This document shows, one piece after another, positions 4,267-41,582 of a DNA stretch of 41,627 nucleotides. Location of the stretch: positions 1 to 41,627 of IMG/VR virus record IMGVR_UViG_3300006871_000005. One strand, 5' to 3'. The stretch comes from a virus. Position 1 is the stretch's first letter; each line of letters opens with the position of its first letter. Under the pieces are notes generated by a model, which was not told the origin of the DNA, did no database searches, and saw only the letters and a program-made list of their open reading frames with translations. A program made the translations under genes and the position numbers.

Positions 4267-4800
4267 TCAGATCGGCGCGGCGACGTTCACGCCAGCGCGG
4301 ATCATGGTGATGTGCGTCTCACCGAGCATTCCAGGATACGCCCCAAAGAGCCCAGTGACCTCGGACGTCGCTCCCACTGGGAAGCGCACCAGCAACTCCG
4401 GTCCGACAAAGATCGTCGTCTGGTTGAGTTCCGGCGTTCCGTCTCCGGCACCAAACCCTCCAATCCCCAACCCGAGCCACTTAGGGCGGGCGTTCTTCCA
4501 CGCTTCCGCCTTGCTCCCCACCTTGAAAAACTGGCGGTAGCCCACGCCCATCTGGCGCCCGCCGCCGGTGTCCGAGATGCCCACGAAGCTCACGAGCTCG
4601 CCGAGCAGGTTGTCCGACAACTGCGCGTCGTACTGCATCTCGAGCAGCGCCGTCGCGACGTTCGTCAGGTGTCCGCCCTGCGCGATCGACGTTGCGAACG
4701 CACTACCGCCGAGCGCGACGCCATCGGCCATCGCTGGGGCTGAGAGGAACGCGCTGAGCAGAGCGAGGGCGGCGGCAGCCGCGAGGATCGTGCGCTTCAT
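4267..4800 (-). CDS. Exported beta-barrel-like protein, 177 aa
   Basis: A clear Sec signal peptide starts the protein: MKRTILAAAAALALL, then SAPAMA and a predicted cut before DGVALGG. The rest is glycine-rich with alternating polar and hydrophobic residues (LGLGIGGFGAGDG, IFVGPELLVRFPVG, GLFGAYPGML), resembling a small outer-membrane beta-barrel or a lipid-facing beta protein. The start has a GGAGG site. A phage-encoded outer-membrane protein expressed with lysis genes could alter the envelope or block the receptor against superinfection. That role is inference. There is no lipobox cysteine. Confidence 0.65.
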   Translation of the reverse strand: MKRTILAAAAALALLSAFLSAPAMADGVALGGSAFATSIAQGGHLTNVATALLEMQYDAQLSDNLLGELVSFVGISDTGGGRQMGVGYRQFFKVGSKAEAWKNARPKWLGLGIGGFGAGDGTPELNQTTIFVGPELLVRFPVGATSEVTGLFGAYPGMLGETHITMIRAGVNVAAPI

Positions 4801-18364: not shown

Positions 18365-19135
18365 CTAGGGCGTCTTGGCCTTGATGCGATAGAGGCCCAG
18401 TCGAACCTGCGGCTTGTCGGGATTCACCGGTGACGCTGAGTTGGGCGTGATGTAGACGCTCCACGGCTCGCCTGGTCCGCTGAATGCTGGCGTAATCACG
18501 GTGAGCCCGCTCACGCCGCTCGCGGTCGGCTGCGTAGTCTTCTTCACTGGAGCGGTCGTGCTCACGAAGACCTGCAGCGAGCAGTTGGGCGCGGTGTTCT
18601 TGCGGTATGTCCATCCGACGTAGGTGCAGCAGAGACTGTCTGCGCCCAGCATGAAGCCGAAAGGCGTAGCCCGCGTGGTATCGCCAGGCGCCGCGTTCGC
18701 CCAAATCCCGAGAGAGCCAGTCACCGCCGTTCCGGTCAGAACGAAGGCGTTCGGCACCGGCGTAAGCCAATGATTGGCAGCGGTGCAGTAGACCCAGAAC
18801 GTCCCCGTCGTGTCGCACCACGCGCGCAGCGTGTCCGTGGGCGGCGACGCCCCGAACGAGATCGAGGACGTCGGCCAGCCCTTCGTCGAGTCGGGCTTAT
18901 TTGCCGGCCATGCTTTCGTGCTGTCAGGCTTGTTCGCGGGCCAGGCCTTGGTGCTATCCGGTTTGTTGGCCGGCCAGGCTTTGGTCGAATCGGGTTTGTT
19001 CGCAGGCCATGCCTTCGTCGAGTCCGGACCCTGCGTGACCGGCGAATACGAGATCCCCGCGCCGCCAAAGACGACGCACGCCGCCGCGAGCGTGAGAAGC
19101 GCGCAGACCGCCCGCAGGTTCGTGTTCCGCATCAT
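18365..19135 (-). CDS. Exported protein with five 11-residue repeats, 256 aa
   Basis: An N-terminal hydrophobic signal (LRAVCALLTLAAACVVFGG) is followed by five tandem 11-residue units, four identical (PDSTKAWPANK) and a fifth diverged, then a beta-rich C-terminal domain with cysteines (WCDTTGTFWVYCTA, LCCTYVGWTYR). I choose the ATG at 19135 because it overlaps the previous stop (ATGA) and has GGATGGGA before it. The cysteines, the export signal and the proline/tryptophan linker suggest a periplasmic or surface-exposed stalk carrying a folded head. An unusual place for such a protein is the structural module, next to two other exported proteins. Confidence 0.65.
   Translation of the reverse strand: MMRNTNLRAVCALLTLAAACVVFGGAGISYSPVTQGPDSTKAWPANKPDSTKAWPANKPDSTKAWPANKPDSTKAWPANKPDSTKGWPTSSISFGASPPTDTLRAWCDTTGTFWVYCTAANHWLTPVPNAFVLTGTAVTGSLGIWANAAPGDTTRATPFGFMLGADSLCCTYVGWTYRKNTAPNCSLQVFVSTTAPVKKTTQPTASGVSGLTVITPAFSGPGEPWSVYITPNSASPVNPDKPQVRLGLYRIKAKTP
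18863..19027 (-). repeat. Five 33-bp tandem repeat units coding an 11-aa motif
   Basis: Units start at 19027, 18994, 18961, 18928 and 18895 and run leftward. Units 1-4 encode the same 11 residues but use different synonymous codons (for example TCG or AGC for Ser, AAG or AAA for Lys). The repeat is therefore old or conserved at the protein level rather than a fresh slippage product. Unit 5 ends in GWPTSS and forms the exit to the C-terminal domain. Confidence 0.9.
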
Positions 19136-19551
19136 TCCCATCCGATCAACTCGAAGGGCCCGCCGACCGTCGGCACGTTCACGGCGTCAGCGAACTCCCA
19201 TCCCTGGAAGCGGACCGCGTTCACGAGGAGTGCGGTCCCAGCGGGGATCGGGAGCGTCACGTACTTTGTTCCGCTCGCCCAACCGGGCGCCGCCGGCGTG
19301 TACCATCGGATGTTCACGAAGCCCGACGTCGCCGTGTTCATCAGCAGGATGTTCGCTACGGATTTCCCAGCGGACGCCGTCGTCGTCGCACCGTCCGCCG
19401 TCTGGTTGAAGTAGTTGATGGCGCCAGTCACGCCAGTGGCGACCGCCGAGTTGATGTAGTACCCGAAGACCGGAGGGCTCGTGGACTCCGCGGACAGCGC
19501 AAGGAAGCTCGCCAGGAGCGCGATGACTCGGATCAGGTTTCGCAGTGGCAT
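19132..19551 (-). CDS. Exported small protein, paralogue A, 139 aa
   Basis: A signal peptide (MPLRNLIRVIALLASFLALS, cut near AES) leads into a beta domain beginning STSPPVFGYYIN. The ATG at 19551 has GGGAG upstream. The mature part shares its layout with the next gene: TSPPV(F/Y)G, an N-rich strand, a DxTTTAxAGK-like loop, an RWYxPA strand and a C-terminal WE ending. Tandem duplication with divergence is the simplest explanation. An exported domain in a phage head-tail operon suggests a host-envelope function or an unusual virion surface protein. Confidence 0.65.
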   Translation of the reverse strand: MPLRNLIRVIALLASFLALSAESTSPPVFGYYINSAVATGVTGAINYFNQTADGATTTASAGKSVANILLMNTATSGFVNIRWYTPAAPGWASGTKYVTLPIPAGTALLVNAVRFQGWEFADAVNVPTVGGPFELIGWE

Positions 19552-20757: not shown

Positions 20758-22341
20758 TTACGAGGCGCGGACGTCCGGGATGCCGTACGTGTGCTTGTCC
20801 GTCGTCGGAGGCGCCTGATTGAACGCCGCCCGGAGGAAGGACTTGAGGTAGAGCGCGTCCGAGTTGATCGCCGGAATCAGGTTGATCTGGAGATCGCGCT
20901 TGATTCCGAGCAGCCACCGCTCGGGCAGCGTGAGGATCGCCGTCGAGGCCGTCCCGGCGCCCGCGTTGTTACGACCGCTCGCCGCGAGCGTCGAAGGCAC
21001 CCACTCGGAAGCCACGATCGGGATGCCCCAGATCCGGCCGAGTTCGCCGGCCACGATCGTTGCCTGCGGACCATAGACGTCGATCGTCTTCACGACCGGA
21101 TCGCCGACGAGTCCGAGGTAGCCGATCGGATCGACGAACAGGCGGAGCCGCGACGGACTGACGGCACCGTACTTCGCCATCGCCGTGCGCGCCGCATGGA
21201 CCGCCGACGCCGTGAGCTTGCCAGCCTGCGCGGCCGTCTGGAACGCCGTACCACGCGCGGTAGCGCCAGTCGCCACCTGATCCGAGAAGAAGATGTACTG
21301 ACGGAGGCCGCAGAACACTTCGTTCGCGATCCCCGCGCCCACGTTCGGACGATCCGTTCCGTCCATCGCGTTGGCCGACGACTGCAGGAAGAGCGTGTTG
21401 TCGCCGTTGATGATCGCGGAATCCATCGCCTCCGCGTGCGCGAACATGAGCGCCTCGCGGTGCACCGCGATCGTCGAGACGATCAGGTCTTCCTCGGCCT
21501 CGACGGAGCAGGCCGTCGCGCCCGTGAACTTGTACTTCGGCGCGAGTTCGAGGTAGCCCGTGCCCGGCGTGGACAGATCAGCGGCGACAGGGAACATGAC
21601 CGGCTCGCTCGAATCCGTGAACTCCGCCGCCGCCTTGATCGACGCGCGCGCGGTGATCACCGGCTCGCGCCAGATCGCCAGCCCACGCGGGATCTGCCGC
21701 AGCGGGAAGTTCGCAGCGATCCCCGTCGGCAGACGGAAGAAAGGAATCACCTGCGTCGAGTAGACCGTCGGCTTCCACTCCGCGCCCTGGCCGGCGTTGT
21801 CCACCGACCAGAAGTCGTCTGCCGCCTTCGTGACCATCGCCTTCAACCGCGCGAGCTTCTTCGACGTCTTGACCGAGCCGGTGTACACCTCGCCCAGCGC
21901 CTGCGCCTTCATGCGCATGGCGTTGTGGTACAGGTCGATGTCACGGACCTGATCGTTCAGCCGCTGGACCTCGTGCAGCCAGCTTCCGCGCGCCGCCGGC
22001 TCCTCCATCGCCTCGTCGTACCCGAGGTGATGCATGAGCGCCGCCTGGTCGCGCGCGTTGTACGAGCCCTCTGGCGTCGCGCCGTCCATCACACGGCTCC
22101 GGCCCTTGACCTTGACGCCATCCTCCATGTGATCGCCGCGCTGCTTCTGCAGCGAGAGGATGTTGTCGCTCGCCGTCTTCAGATCGGCGGAGCCCGTCTT
22201 GAACGCTTCGAGGATCTGTGCCACGCCCTTGACCCACTCGCCATCGACCTTCTCGGTCACAGGCGGCGCGGGCGGCGTGTGCGTGGCTCCGACAGCGCCT
22301 TCTCCCTCGCCGAAGCGATGGATTGCGTCGTTGGGGATCAT
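20758..22341 (-). CDS. HK97-fold major capsid protein, 527 aa
   Basis: The protein follows the prohead protease and has the HK97 arrangement. Residues up to about 120 form a helical delta or scaffolding-like region (VAQILEAFKTGSADLKTAS), followed by the shell domain with the PFFRLPTGIAANFPLRQIPRG arm and IWGIPIVASEWVPST near the C-terminus. The ATG at 22341 overlaps the protease stop (ATGA). The N-terminal RFGEGEGAV recurs in the protease. The N-terminal region would be removed by the protease at maturation, as in HK97. Confidence 0.88.
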   Translation of the reverse strand: MIPNDAIHRFGEGEGAVGATHTPPAPPVTEKVDGEWVKGVAQILEAFKTGSADLKTASDNILSLQKQRGDHMEDGVKVKGRSRVMDGATPEGSYNARDQAALMHHLGYDEAMEEPAARGSWLHEVQRLNDQVRDIDLYHNAMRMKAQALGEVYTGSVKTSKKLARLKAMVTKAADDFWSVDNAGQGAEWKPTVYSTQVIPFFRLPTGIAANFPLRQIPRGLAIWREPVITARASIKAAAEFTDSSEPVMFPVAADLSTPGTGYLELAPKYKFTGATACSVEAEEDLIVSTIAVHREALMFAHAEAMDSAIINGDNTLFLQSSANAMDGTDRPNVGAGIANEVFCGLRQYIFFSDQVATGATARGTAFQTAAQAGKLTASAVHAARTAMAKYGAVSPSRLRLFVDPIGYLGLVGDPVVKTIDVYGPQATIVAGELGRIWGIPIVASEWVPSTLAASGRNNAGAGTASTAILTLPERWLLGIKRDLQINLIPAINSDALYLKSFLRAAFNQAPPTTDKHTYGIPDVRAS

Positions 22342-23192
22342 GCCTTGCCTCCGACAACCGGAAGGTGAGATCCAACGGTCACGCCCGCCAACGCCGCGCC
22401 CGGAAGACTCCGGAGAACTTCGTTGAGGACCGCATGGACTTCCGCGTGGCCAGGAAGCGGCCCACGCGCTTGCTCGCCGGAGATTCCGGCGGACACCGAC
22501 CTGCCGAGTCGGTCTTTCACCGCGCTCGCCATCCCGAACACGGCGCCACGGTTTGCAGGGACAGGAACGACGGAAATTTCGAGCAGCTCCAGCTTCGTGA
22601 TGCGCGACACGCCCGGACGCTTCGCGTCCTCCTTGATGTCGCCCATCTCCAACCAGAACCCGATCGAGAACGCCTTGAGGATGCCCTCTTCGATCTGCGT
22701 GCGGACCATCTCTGCGGTCCCCGCCGCCTTGGACAGAGCGACGCGCACCCACAGCCCACCGGACTGGATTTCGAGCTTGATGGCCTTGCCGATGGGCATT
22801 GCGAAGGAGTGCGCGAAGAGGACGACGGGGAACTTCTTGTAGCGCGGAAGCGTCTCGCGGAAGGCGTCCGGCTCGACGATCTCCTTGAACGAATCGACCT
22901 GCGTGGTCGAAGCCATGCCCTCGACGACGAACTCGTCCGCGCCCACGCCCTTGGTGACGCGCTCGAGGTTGTCGATGTCGAGGGTAAGGCGCGGCTCCCA
23001 CTCGCCGCCGTTCTTGCCGGCGGTGACGCGCGCAATGAGCGCCGCGATCTCCGCGTCGCTCGTCGTATCGGAGGGAGGAACTTCCGGGGGATGGACCTCG
23101 GCGACGGCGCCCTCGCCCTCACCGAATCGCGCAGGCTCTCCGCTGCCCAGCAGCGCCGCGCACTTCGCATGGCCGAGTTCGTTTCGGCTCAG
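22338..23192 (-). CDS. HK97-family prohead protease, probable CTG start
   Basis: This serine protease of the S78 type matures the capsid. Visible are VVEGMASTTQVDSF (the usual first strand), VLFAHSFAMPIG (catalytic histidine), KAFSIGFWL (catalytic serine) and LEISVVPVPAN. A GTG at 22946 would give 202 aa, but it has no ribosome-binding site and leaves out family-like sequence (EWEPRLTLDIDN). The same frame stays open for 82 codons back to the portal stop, and a CTG at 23192 lies five bases after GGGAG, giving 284 aa. I prefer the longer form. Confidence 0.75.
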   Translation of the reverse strand: MSRNELGHAKCAALLGSGEPARFGEGEGAVAEVHPPEVPPSDTTSDAEIAALIARVTAGKNGGEWEPRLTLDIDNLERVTKGVGADEFVVEGMASTTQVDSFKEIVEPDAFRETLPRYKKFPVVLFAHSFAMPIGKAIKLEIQSGGLWVRVALSKAAGTAEMVRTQIEEGILKAFSIGFWLEMGDIKEDAKRPGVSRITKLELLEISVVPVPANRGAVFGMASAVKDRLGRSVSAGISGEQARGPLPGHAEVHAVLNEVLRSLPGAALAGVTVGSHLPVVGGKA

Positions 23193-25403
23193 TCAATCTC
23201 CCGTGTTCGTGAAGATCGGACGAGTAACACAACGACAATTGCAGACCTGGCCCACGTCGTCAATCGCTCCAGGGTACTCGCCGCGGCTGCCGTCGGGCAG
23301 TACGAAGTTCTCGCCGAGTGCGACGACCACGCCGTCCATGGCCTCATGGTCGGGGCGCACACGGTCGTCCTCCGCCGTCAGCCACTCGTGCTCTTCGATC
23401 CCGGCTTCCTTGTAGACGTCGAGCGAGCCGGCGTTGTAGAGCCCCCCCGTCTCCGTCCGGGCGATCCGCTCCGCCCAGGAACCGGCGAGGTCGTCGAAGT
23501 GCTCCCCGATCTGCCCGGCGAGCTCGCGGACGGTGAGGCCCTCGGTCGCCGCCTCCTCCACGAGATCCATGAGCGCCTGCCGCTGGGTCGCGGTGACTGC
23601 GTCCGTCGCCTCGTTGACCCACTGGCCGAGGAACTCCCGGGCCTTCGGGCCGTCCACGTTCACGACGTAGGACGCCGCCTTCTTCGCGCCGGATGCCACG
23701 ATCTCCGACGCATCCCGGACGCCCAGCTTGTAGGTCGCGCGCGCGGGTGCGCGGAACTCGGCGTTCGCCGAGCGATGGAGGCCCGCGGTGTAGTCGAGCG
23801 CGATGAGCGCGTGCCCTACGGCGTCCGAGCCCTTGGGCGCCGCAAGGTGCAGGAGCCGTAGCGCCTCGGTCTTCCCCGCGCGCGCCGCGCGCCGCGCCGC
23901 CGCCTCCCAGAGCCCGTGTAGCCGGAGGATCCGGGAGGACACCGTCCGGACGATCCGCGTTCGCTCGGCCTTCTCCTTCGGCGCGTTCTTCCCGATCCAC
24001 TCGCCGGGCACCGGCTCGATCGCGGCCAGCGCCATCTCGGGGTCCGGCGCACGCTCGAAGCCGACGCTATTCCCGCCCCCTCCGCCGCCCCCAGGGGCCG
24101 CGGGCGTGTCCCCAGGTGCCCCTGGTTCGGTCGTGGGCGCCACGGGCCGGAGGAACGGCGGGATGTCGCCCCAGGGCAAGGCCTGCCCATAGTCGCGCTT
24201 CTCACGGATCTCGTTGATCGTCTCGATCCCCCGGTCCACGTTCCCTTGGTCGATCGCCGCCGCCGCCCGCGTGTCCTCTTTCAGCGCCTCGATCCGCGAG
24301 TAGTCGAAGACCACCTTCACCCCAAAGATCGTGGTGAGGGGATGCGAGTTCAGGCGCTCGGACTTGATCTCGTTCTGGGGGATGACCGTGCCGCGGTAGA
24401 ACTGCTGGTCCTGCTGGCGGGCCGTCGCGTACGCCGCGTACTCCATCAGCCCGGTCTGCACCGGCGGCACCCCGAACACAGCGTGCACCTCCTCGCGGAG
24501 CATCCCCAGGAGCTTCGTGAACTCGGCCTCGCGCATGTTCATGCCGGCTTCCACGAAGTCGGCCGCCCCGATGAACAGCGTCGAGTGCCGCTTCCCCTGG
24601 CCGACGTGCGCGGAGTTCAGCTCGGCCTTCACCCGCGCCATCTGGGCGTCCGACATCATCCCGCCGGCCGGCGCCTTCACGATCCCCGAGATCCGCATGC
24701 CGTTCCGGAACATGTCCTCGTTCCAGCCGTAGGCCTCGTGCATCAGCCGGAGCGTGCGCTCAAGCTGCCGGAGCCGCGAGAGGCCGTAGAGCGGGTCGCG
24801 GATGTTCGGCTCGCGGAAGTGGATCACCTGGCCGACGTCGAGCGGCACGACCTTCCCGCTGGCGTTCGTGAACTCATAGCCCTCGATCGGGAAGGCCGAT
24901 GACGTCGAGGGGACGACGCGCATCTTGTCGGGCCGCGCGAACCAGATCTCCAGGTTCTGAACGTCGGACATGGATGTGAGCGACGGCGGGTTCCCGCTGC
25001 CGTCGTCGAGGATCCAGTACGCGTTTCCCGCGACGAGGATCGCGAGATCCGAGAGAATCCGAAGCTCCCAGCCGCTCATCGTGTCGTTCGGACGGTTGAG
25101 CCGCTGGATCAGCGGGTGCTCGAAGTCGATGTCCCCAGAGCCGCCCCGCGCGCCCCATGGCACCCCGGCCGCGCTCCGTGAGATCGCTCGCGTACACGCC
25201 TCCACCCACGAGAAGAGCCCCGTCGAGTTCACGAACGCCGCGAAGTCCTGCTCGACGGGCTCCGCGCCCTTGCCCGCGAACATGCGCGAGAGCATCAGCT
25301 CTTCGAGCATCGCCGACCAGATGGGGTTGTTCTTCGTGCGGAAGGAGTGCACGGCTTGACGCGCCGTGCGCACGGGATGCAGGAGGACGTCGGCTAGAGC
25401 CAT
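23193..25403 (-). CDS. Portal protein fused to Mu gpF-like domain, 736 aa
   Basis: Residues 1 to about 430 are a portal protein of HK97 type: WVEACTRAISRSAAGVPW, GNAYWILDDG, VIHFREPNIRDPLYGLSRL and FGVPPVQTGL are recognisable. A glycine-rich linker (GGGGGGGN) near residue 460 leads to a C-terminal Mu gpF-like head morphogenesis domain, ending in IARTETGG, then DDRVRPDHEAMDG and CNCRCVTRP. Fusions of these two are known in phages. The domain is thought to help early head assembly or be injected. The stop codon is UGA followed by C, in frame with the downstream protease. Confidence 0.9.
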   Translation of the reverse strand: MALADVLLHPVRTARQAVHSFRTKNNPIWSAMLEELMLSRMFAGKGAEPVEQDFAAFVNSTGLFSWVEACTRAISRSAAGVPWGARGGSGDIDFEHPLIQRLNRPNDTMSGWELRILSDLAILVAGNAYWILDDGSGNPPSLTSMSDVQNLEIWFARPDKMRVVPSTSSAFPIEGYEFTNASGKVVPLDVGQVIHFREPNIRDPLYGLSRLRQLERTLRLMHEAYGWNEDMFRNGMRISGIVKAPAGGMMSDAQMARVKAELNSAHVGQGKRHSTLFIGAADFVEAGMNMREAEFTKLLGMLREEVHAVFGVPPVQTGLMEYAAYATARQQDQQFYRGTVIPQNEIKSERLNSHPLTTIFGVKVVFDYSRIEALKEDTRAAAAIDQGNVDRGIETINEIREKRDYGQALPWGDIPPFLRPVAPTTEPGAPGDTPAAPGGGGGGGNSVGFERAPDPEMALAAIEPVPGEWIGKNAPKEKAERTRIVRTVSSRILRLHGLWEAAARRAARAGKTEALRLLHLAAPKGSDAVGHALIALDYTAGLHRSANAEFRAPARATYKLGVRDASEIVASGAKKAASYVVNVDGPKAREFLGQWVNEATDAVTATQRQALMDLVEEAATEGLTVRELAGQIGEHFDDLAGSWAERIARTETGGLYNAGSLDVYKEAGIEEHEWLTAEDDRVRPDHEAMDGVVVALGENFVLPDGSRGEYPGAIDDVGQVCNCRCVTRPIFTNTGD

Positions 25404-39890: not shown

Positions 39891-40093
39891 TGAATGGTAC
39901 CTCCCATGTTTGCGAGCTTGTCGGTGAGATCGCGCGCGAGTGCCATGAGGTCTTTGTAGCAGTCCTCGCAGACATCCACCGCATCCGAGATCGGATCTCC
40001 CGGGAATGCCTTCGCGTACTCGGCCTCCACCTCTTCGCGCGATCGCTCGGCGACGCAGGTTGCCCCGCAATGCGACCACACGAACCTCGTCAT
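39887..40093 (-). CDS. Small zinc-binding protein between exonuclease and RecT, 68 aa
   Basis: The ATG at 40093 overlaps the exonuclease stop. The sequence begins MTRFVWSHCGATCVAER and has VDVCEDCYKDLMAL; the CxxxC and CxxC pairs would bind one zinc. It lies inside the recombination operon, coupled on both sides, so it may help the exonuclease-RecT pair or bind DNA. No known family is certain. Confidence 0.6.
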   Translation of the reverse strand: MTRFVWSHCGATCVAERSREEVEAEYAKAFPGDPISDAVDVCEDCYKDLMALARDLTDKLANMGGTIQ

Positions 40094-41427
40094 CCCGCGG
40101 CCCTCTTCTCGTGTCGCCGCAGCACGCGGAACTCCGCCGCCTTCACGACGTGCTCGGCGCGCTGCTGGGTCCGGTACGAATAGCGGACGCCTGACGCGAG
40201 CGTGCCTTCCGTCGCATCGGCCAGCGCCGCCTTGATCCTCTGGTTCGCCACTTCGAGGTCCTTCTCGACGGTCGCCTTCGCGCGGAGCAGCTCCTCCCGC
40301 TCGCGGTCGAGGTCGATGAACTCCCCGGGCAGCGCGATGACCGCGCCAGTGTCCCGCGGATACAGCAACTTCAGCGCCTCGCGGCTCGCCTCCGTCCCGT
40401 CCGGCGCCGGCGGCAAGTCCTTCTCGACGCGCTCCCAGAAGTCGGCCTCCGCGTCGTTGAGCCGCGCAATGAACGCATCGTCCCGCGGCAGGTCGATCCA
40501 GAGCAGCCGCGACCCGTTCACCAGCACCACGACGGACGCCCACGAGAGGCCGGTGACGGCGAGTTGGTGCTGCACCTGAGCGACGACGTGCGGCGGCGCG
40601 CCCTCCGTCCATGACCAGCCCATGCCCGTCGTCTTGAGCTCGATCACGCCGAACGGCAGCGGGGTTCCCGGATCTTCCTTCCGGAACCGCCAAGCGTCGG
40701 GCGTTGCGAGTTGCCACGATCGTTCCGCGGAGCGGCAGAGCGTCGAACACGGCTGGACCTCGTGGCCCGTCTCTTTCCCGTACTCCGCGAGGACGATGGG
40801 CTCGAGCAGCGTGCCCCACCGCATCCGCTCGGAATCGTCGCGCTCCGGGCTCAGCCCCTTCTTGTCCGCGTACACCGACAGCGGGGACGCCCACGGCGAA
40901 ATCCCGAGGATCGCCGCCGCGTCGCTCGACCCGATGCCCTTGCGCCGCTCGGCAAGCCACGTCTCCCGGTCGCGCGAGTCGCAGACCACCTCGAAGGCCG
41001 CCGCGGTCGAGACGACCTTGGGAAGTTGCACGGCCACACTCACGCCTTCCCTGTAGTAGCCGTTAGAGGTTCCGTACCATCGGATTGTGACATAGCCCTT
41101 GAGGGTGGCGAACTTGTAGAACGTCCAGGTGAAGGACTCTCCCGGATAGTGACTCGCCGGGGGCGGAGCGTCATCGCTTGAGACGGCCTCCGCCATCGTA
41201 AGCGGAGACCCCAGGAGATCGTGCAGGTCGCCATCCACGTCCTCGATGCTCACCGATTCGCAGCAATCTTGCTCGTGCCACAACCGAACGAGCGTGCCGT
41301 CCGTAGCCGCGAGGTGCAGTTCATCCCCGCTGCGCTCCGCCAAGCTCAATGTCTTCCCGACCATCAGCGAAAGGTCTTCCAAAGATCCTGAGTTCCACCG
41401 CCCCACGCTCTCAAAATCGATCGTCAC
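40090..41427 (-). CDS. YqaJ-type exonuclease with extra N-terminal domain, 445 aa
   Basis: Residues 150 onward form a YqaJ/lambda-exonuclease-like domain: IGSSDAAAILG (166-176), GTLLEPIV (E209), ATPDAW (D244) and VIELKTT (E263, K265). It digests dsDNA for RecT. Residues 20-135 form a separate domain with WHEQDCCESVSIEDV, LLGSPL and TWTFYKFATLKGYV, then TIRWYGTSNGYY. This closely resembles a small protein (DUF7448-like) normally encoded alone. A GTG at 41427 has GGGAGG six bases upstream and overlaps the previous stop. The fusion is unusual. Confidence 0.85.
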   Translation of the reverse strand: MTIDFESVGRWNSGSLEDLSLMVGKTLSLAERSGDELHLAATDGTLVRLWHEQDCCESVSIEDVDGDLHDLLGSPLTMAEAVSSDDAPPPASHYPGESFTWTFYKFATLKGYVTIRWYGTSNGYYREGVSVAVQLPKVVSTAAAFEVVCDSRDRETWLAERRKGIGSSDAAAILGISPWASPLSVYADKKGLSPERDDSERMRWGTLLEPIVLAEYGKETGHEVQPCSTLCRSAERSWQLATPDAWRFRKEDPGTPLPFGVIELKTTGMGWSWTEGAPPHVVAQVQHQLAVTGLSWASVVVLVNGSRLLWIDLPRDDAFIARLNDAEADFWERVEKDLPPAPDGTEASREALKLLYPRDTGAVIALPGEFIDLDREREELLRAKATVEKDLEVANQRIKAALADATEGTLASGVRYSYRTQQRAEHVVKAAEFRVLRRHEKRAAG

Positions 41428-41582
41428 CACAGCCCTCCCGCTTTGCCGGCCGCGTGCAGCAGTCCTAGCGCCACGAGCACGCAGCACCACTTGAACGCCC
41501 GCGACTCCCGCAGCTTCGCCGCAGCGCGCCGCACCGCGTCAGACTGGACCGACGCCGAACCTTCCCAGCTATTCCTCAGCAT
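41424..41582 (-). CDS. Small protein with one hydrophobic segment, 52 aa
   Basis: The ATG at 41582 has AAGGA upstream and opens 52 codons ending in TGA that overlaps the exonuclease start. It begins MLRNSWEGSASVQSDAV and has one hydrophobic segment (WCCVLVALGLLHAAG). Its 5' part is duplicated at 1-65 by the circular overlap. It is the first gene of the recombination operon. The role is unknown; it could be a small membrane-anchored protein. Confidence 0.6.
   Translation of the reverse strand: MLRNSWEGSASVQSDAVRRAAAKLRESRAFKWCCVLVALGLLHAAGKAGGLW

Follow-up and report, generated by a model that had tools for sequence, protein, structure and literature searches.

The question raised by this locus is where translation of a phage head protease gene begins, when the gene follows the portal gene directly and opens without a conventional start codon. 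The window (the whole stretch of DNA analysed, a virus record of 41,627 bases with a G+C content of 66%) is a single contig from one metagenomic assembly. On its minus strand, the portal gene ends with ...TRPIFTNTGD-stop, after which the same frame continues with LSRNELGHAKCAALLGSGEPARFGEGEGAV... into the protease (Table 1). Counted from CTG 23192, the protease frame has 284 open codons before a stop whose last base is 22338, and its first ATG, GTG or TTG is GTG 22946, at codon 83. The first-pass annotation had described the portal stop with its 82 open same-frame codons, the lack of ATG, GTG or TTG before 22946 and a GGGAG five bases before the CTG adjoining the stop; direct reading bore all of this out, coordinates included. 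Two explanations had been left side by side, initiation at the CTG or readthrough of a UGA-C stop.

Table 1. Features of the portal-protease-capsid region, in window coordinates
Feature	Position	Strand	Evidence
Portal protein with C-terminal MuF domain, 736 aa	23193..25403	-	Pfam Phage_portal 1.5e-53, Phage_Mu_F 5.3e-14; phrog_2662 portal 8.6e-88
Portal stop TGA	23195-23193	-	read directly from sequence
GGGAG, Shine-Dalgarno-like, 5 nt before CTG 23192, within the end of the portal gene	23198..23202	-	anti-SD duplex -7.4 kcal/mol
CTG, proposed start codon, adjoins portal stop	23190..23192	-	inferred
Proposed full protease CDS, 284 aa, stop codon 22340-22338	22341..23192	-	Peptidase_S78 3.3e-19; phrog_80 head maturation protease 1.9e-26
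82 codons ahead of the first normal start, coding in the protease frame	22947..23192	-	codon score; conserved lysine at codon 81
RFGEGEGAV, protease codons 22-30	23103..23129	-	common to capsid protein N-terminus
RFGEGEGAV, second copy, capsid protein residues 9-17	22291..22317	-	only two copies in window
GTG, earliest conventional start codon; dismissed as the only start	22944..22946	-	weak SD -2.2; 9 residues left before invariant glycine
Major capsid protein, ATG overlaps protease stop (ATGA)	20758..22341	-	T5-like capsid proteins by tblastn (best E about 1e-9); weak phrog_267, phrog_544

The Peptidase S78 match of the protease reached 70 bits, for a curated cut-off of 21, and H128, S176 and E205 (the catalytic-type His and Ser among them) are invariant in 58 aligned sequences. 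The confidently modelled part of the AlphaFold prediction is a core that begins at about residue 84-88 and ends at 221; for this core Foldseek returned the herpesvirus proteases, or assemblins (E 6e-6), and T4 gp21 (5jbl; E 2.8e-4, rmsd 2.8). By its fold, its conserved residues and the position of its gene between portal and capsid, the protein resembles the Peptidase S78 prohead proteases of HK97/T5 type (PF04586, phrog_80); unlike them, it is extended N-terminally by about 65 residues, which include a motif common to the capsid protein, and its gene has no normal start. Because the core begins at about 84-88 and the residues before it are mostly of low confidence (1-83, save a moderate-confidence helix at 46-57), the predicted structure alone does not require the upstream part. 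A first strand at residues 68-79 was not confirmed by AlphaFold, and the argument from this strand therefore relies on the alignment only.

Is the 82-codon stretch translated? With codon scores trained on the clear genes of the window, it scored +0.14 to +0.15 per codon when read in frame, while the two remaining sense frames gave -0.56 and -0.70; values were about equal on either side of GTG 22946 (0.14 upstream, 0.16 downstream). The signal is strong from codon 41 onward; over codons 1-40 it is weak (-0.10 per codon), yet this frame is still the best one on total score. Ten ORFs, each with 15 or more open codons ahead of its first normal start, served as an internal control. Only that of the protease had a positive score there; the leading stretches of the nine others ranged from -0.23 to -0.68, save for one antisense ORF inside the portal gene (-0.01). 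The protease is thus the sole credible gene of the window with coding-type composition 5' of its first normal start. Given the phage's own codon usage, the probability that 82 coding codons would lack ATG, GTG and TTG is about 0.008. Just before the GTG, residue 81 is a lysine in 55 of 58 aligned relatives.

The motif common to protease and capsid, RFGEGEGAV, bears on the same point. Its two 27-nt copies differ at five sites, all of them third positions and all synonymous, so both have been kept as protein, in frame. A scan for RFGEGEGAV codons gave 15 chance matches, none of them in a protease or capsid gene. The common segment is in fact longer, RFGEGEGAVxxxHxPPxxPP, at 23129-23073 in the protease and 22317-22261 in the capsid (minus strand); nothing comparable was seen in relatives where protease and capsid are separate genes. 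This segment may be an assembly or packaging tag.

Related loci were collected by an alignment-based search (80 protease loci) and a portal-based search (80 more), which together contained 138 protease ORFs. The nearest protease relative from the alignment-based search is about 45% identical, and the collections searched contained no close relatives showing conservation of the start codon. Exact-peptide searches of viral contigs with protease, portal, capsid and terminase gave no useful relatives (four short weak matches for terminase), none was found in bacterial genomes with the portal, and a search for the junction pattern gave one match, unrelated. In 136 of the 138 ORFs, a normal start precedes the invariant glycine (G92 in the protease of the window) by 15 codons or more; the distance is usually 18-42 in the first set of protease loci, and GTG 22946 would leave 9. 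The two exceptions are L056 (apparent frameshift) and L101 (fragmentary record). L056 was discarded as a second startless case: in L056:3157-4208 the N-terminal ORF lies upstream in another frame from the protease domain, the sign of an assembly error or of a frameshift, possibly a programmed one.

Taken together, codon usage, the synonymous motif copies, lysine 81 and the start distances of relatives make translation of the 82-codon stretch well supported at the sequence level. The same holds for a frame extending 5' of the GTG, which both explanations in the first-pass annotation needed. That GTG 22946 would be the only start, with the 82 codons untranslated, is scarcely credible. In its favour, this codon is a conventional start, and the part of the fold predicted with confidence sets in only around residue 88. 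But the Shine-Dalgarno (SD) interaction of the GTG is weak (-2.2 kcal/mol), coding-type codon use, common motif and conserved lysine all lie 5' of it, and the N-terminus it leaves would be much shorter than that of every relative possessing a normal start.

Before codon 22, the only in-frame start candidates are CTG 23192, CTG 23153 and CTG 23150. The SD duplex energy is -7.4 kcal/mol for the first and -3.0 for each of the others; the other genes of the window range from -0.6 to -11.3, many being at -7 or better. Since about 7% of CTGs across the gene region have an equally strong SD by chance, that of CTG 23192 is supportive but not proof. Two codons in other frames were also considered and rejected. 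A start at ATG 23170 (+1 frame, SD -2.4), besides requiring a change of frame ahead of codon 22, conflicts with the motif in frame 0; TTG 23196, which overlaps the stop, opens a frame of only about 25 codons. CTG 23192, which adjoins the portal stop and has the strongest SD of the in-frame candidates, is probably where the protease begins, by re-initiation. A start at the inner CTGs (codons 14/15) is quite improbable: from CTG 23153, RFGEGEGAV would be preceded by 8 residues, the same number as in the capsid protein, but both inner CTGs have the weaker SD and neither adjoins the portal stop.

The junction itself has counterparts among the relatives. The portal stop is followed directly and in frame by the protease ORF in 11 of the 138, all 11 with a normal start available; the layout is therefore nothing unusual, and it is the start codon that stands out. 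At the same junction L077 has TAA-ATG (AGAGTAAATG), with GGAAGAGTAAATG where the window has GGGAGATTGACTG, and portal stop and protease start are nearly adjacent in L086, L103 and L104. The SD energy, the adjacency of stop and start and the TAA-ATG of L077 favour the CTG start over readthrough as the choice between the two earlier explanations.

Readthrough of the UGA would yield a portal-MuF-protease fusion as the only or an additional source of protease. A single stop in the same frame, in UGA-C context, speaks for it, and the arrangement recalls the programmed readthrough fusions of viral structural genes, where one in-frame leaky-type stop separates two such genes; unlike in those, neither a fused homologue nor a stimulatory element was found here. 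Portal and protease share one ORF in none of the 138 cases, whereas protease-capsid fusions are common (26 of the 58 loci in which both were detected). Downstream of the stop, a 5-bp hairpin 6 nt away lies in a region whose z of about -1.3 is not significant. The UGA-C context, singled out in the first-pass annotation, proved unremarkable: TGA-C also ends called genes at 4267, 19556 and 34656, and TGACTG occurs 13 times in the window for 14.4 expected. Moreover, with readthrough the protease would be made only as a minor share of a protein present in 12 copies, and the tight same-frame junction exists in 11 relatives that have normal starts. It is thus very improbable overall, unlikely as the main route and possible as a minor product. 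A reassigned TGA code was dismissed: genes end at TGA at expected lengths and no internal TGA is needed.

There is another way to account for an odd start codon, namely that the real phage has a normal one (e.g. ATG at 23192, or another exposed by one base) and that the contig carries a base error or a minority variant. The data come from a single metagenomic contig, normal starts are found in 136 of 138 relatives, the very position of CTG 23192 is occupied by ATG in L077, and L056 and L101 show that such records can contain frame-breaking flaws or oddities. Still, a consensus base error falling exactly on the start codon is improbable and the protease frame is otherwise clean, so that we regard this explanation as rather unlikely.

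To return to initiation at CTG 23192, the protease gene would run from this codon to 22338. Ribosomes ending the portal at the TGA would be held by the GGGAG just 5' of it and re-initiate on the adjoining CTG with the initiator tRNA (fMet). The product would be a protease of 284 residues whose extra N-terminal segment, of about 65 residues, bears RFGEGEGAV, and the weak start codon would hold the protease well under capsid levels. We infer the CTG start, the coupling to portal termination and the dosage effect alike.

Bacteria do initiate at CUG, if poorly (PMC11497404), and CTG starts are very rare, at 0.024% of annotated genes, a figure cited in PMC11983097. The nearest parallel is RepA of IncFIB plasmids, which starts at a CTG served by a good ribosome-binding site; annotations usually place its start wrongly, at a GTG further down, and its low expression appears to be on purpose (PMC11983097). 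There, a plasmid replication gene is concerned, the GTG is 14 codons away and the start was proven by N-terminal sequencing and mutation, whereas here the CTG start is proposed from sequence for a phage head gene with 82 codons before the GTG. The part of the literature on CUG/CTG or non-canonical starts that was covered showed no head gene of a phage for which a CTG start had been proven. We regard the locus as a credible example of CTG initiation in a phage protease gene, a rare event known from elsewhere and not a new system. If true, it would mean that a phage head gene can start at CTG and that the amount of an assembly protease can be set through CTG initiation coupled to a preceding stop. 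As most gene finders take only ATG, GTG and TTG, they would trim 82 residues here, including the motif common to the capsid; start distances in relatives, combined with codon scores, provide a simple test to find more such genes.

The closest protease relatives by sequence are protease-capsid fusion proteins (phrog_617, phrog_4523), for instance those of L040-L042. In many of the closest relatives (L040, L041, L042, L046, L048 and others), a portal or portal-MuF gene is followed by a single gene for protease and capsid, whose joint product has about 600-850 residues; in the window, unlike in these, the two are separate, with genes overlapping by ATGA. A scenario that we consider quite unlikely is that an ancestral protease-capsid polyprotein was split in two and that the N-terminal tag of the capsid (RFGEGEGAV...HxPPxxPP) was copied onto the protease for entry into the procapsid, the CTG start coupled to portal termination setting the protease-to-capsid ratio.

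Two other genes of the window, both on the minus strand, deserve mention. A small protein encoded at 18365-19141 has a tandem PDSTKAWPANK repeat of about five units near its N-terminus. The ORF at 40090-41538 encodes a RecE-like exonuclease (phrog_434, 9e-77), with a second domain upstream that matches phrog_2650.
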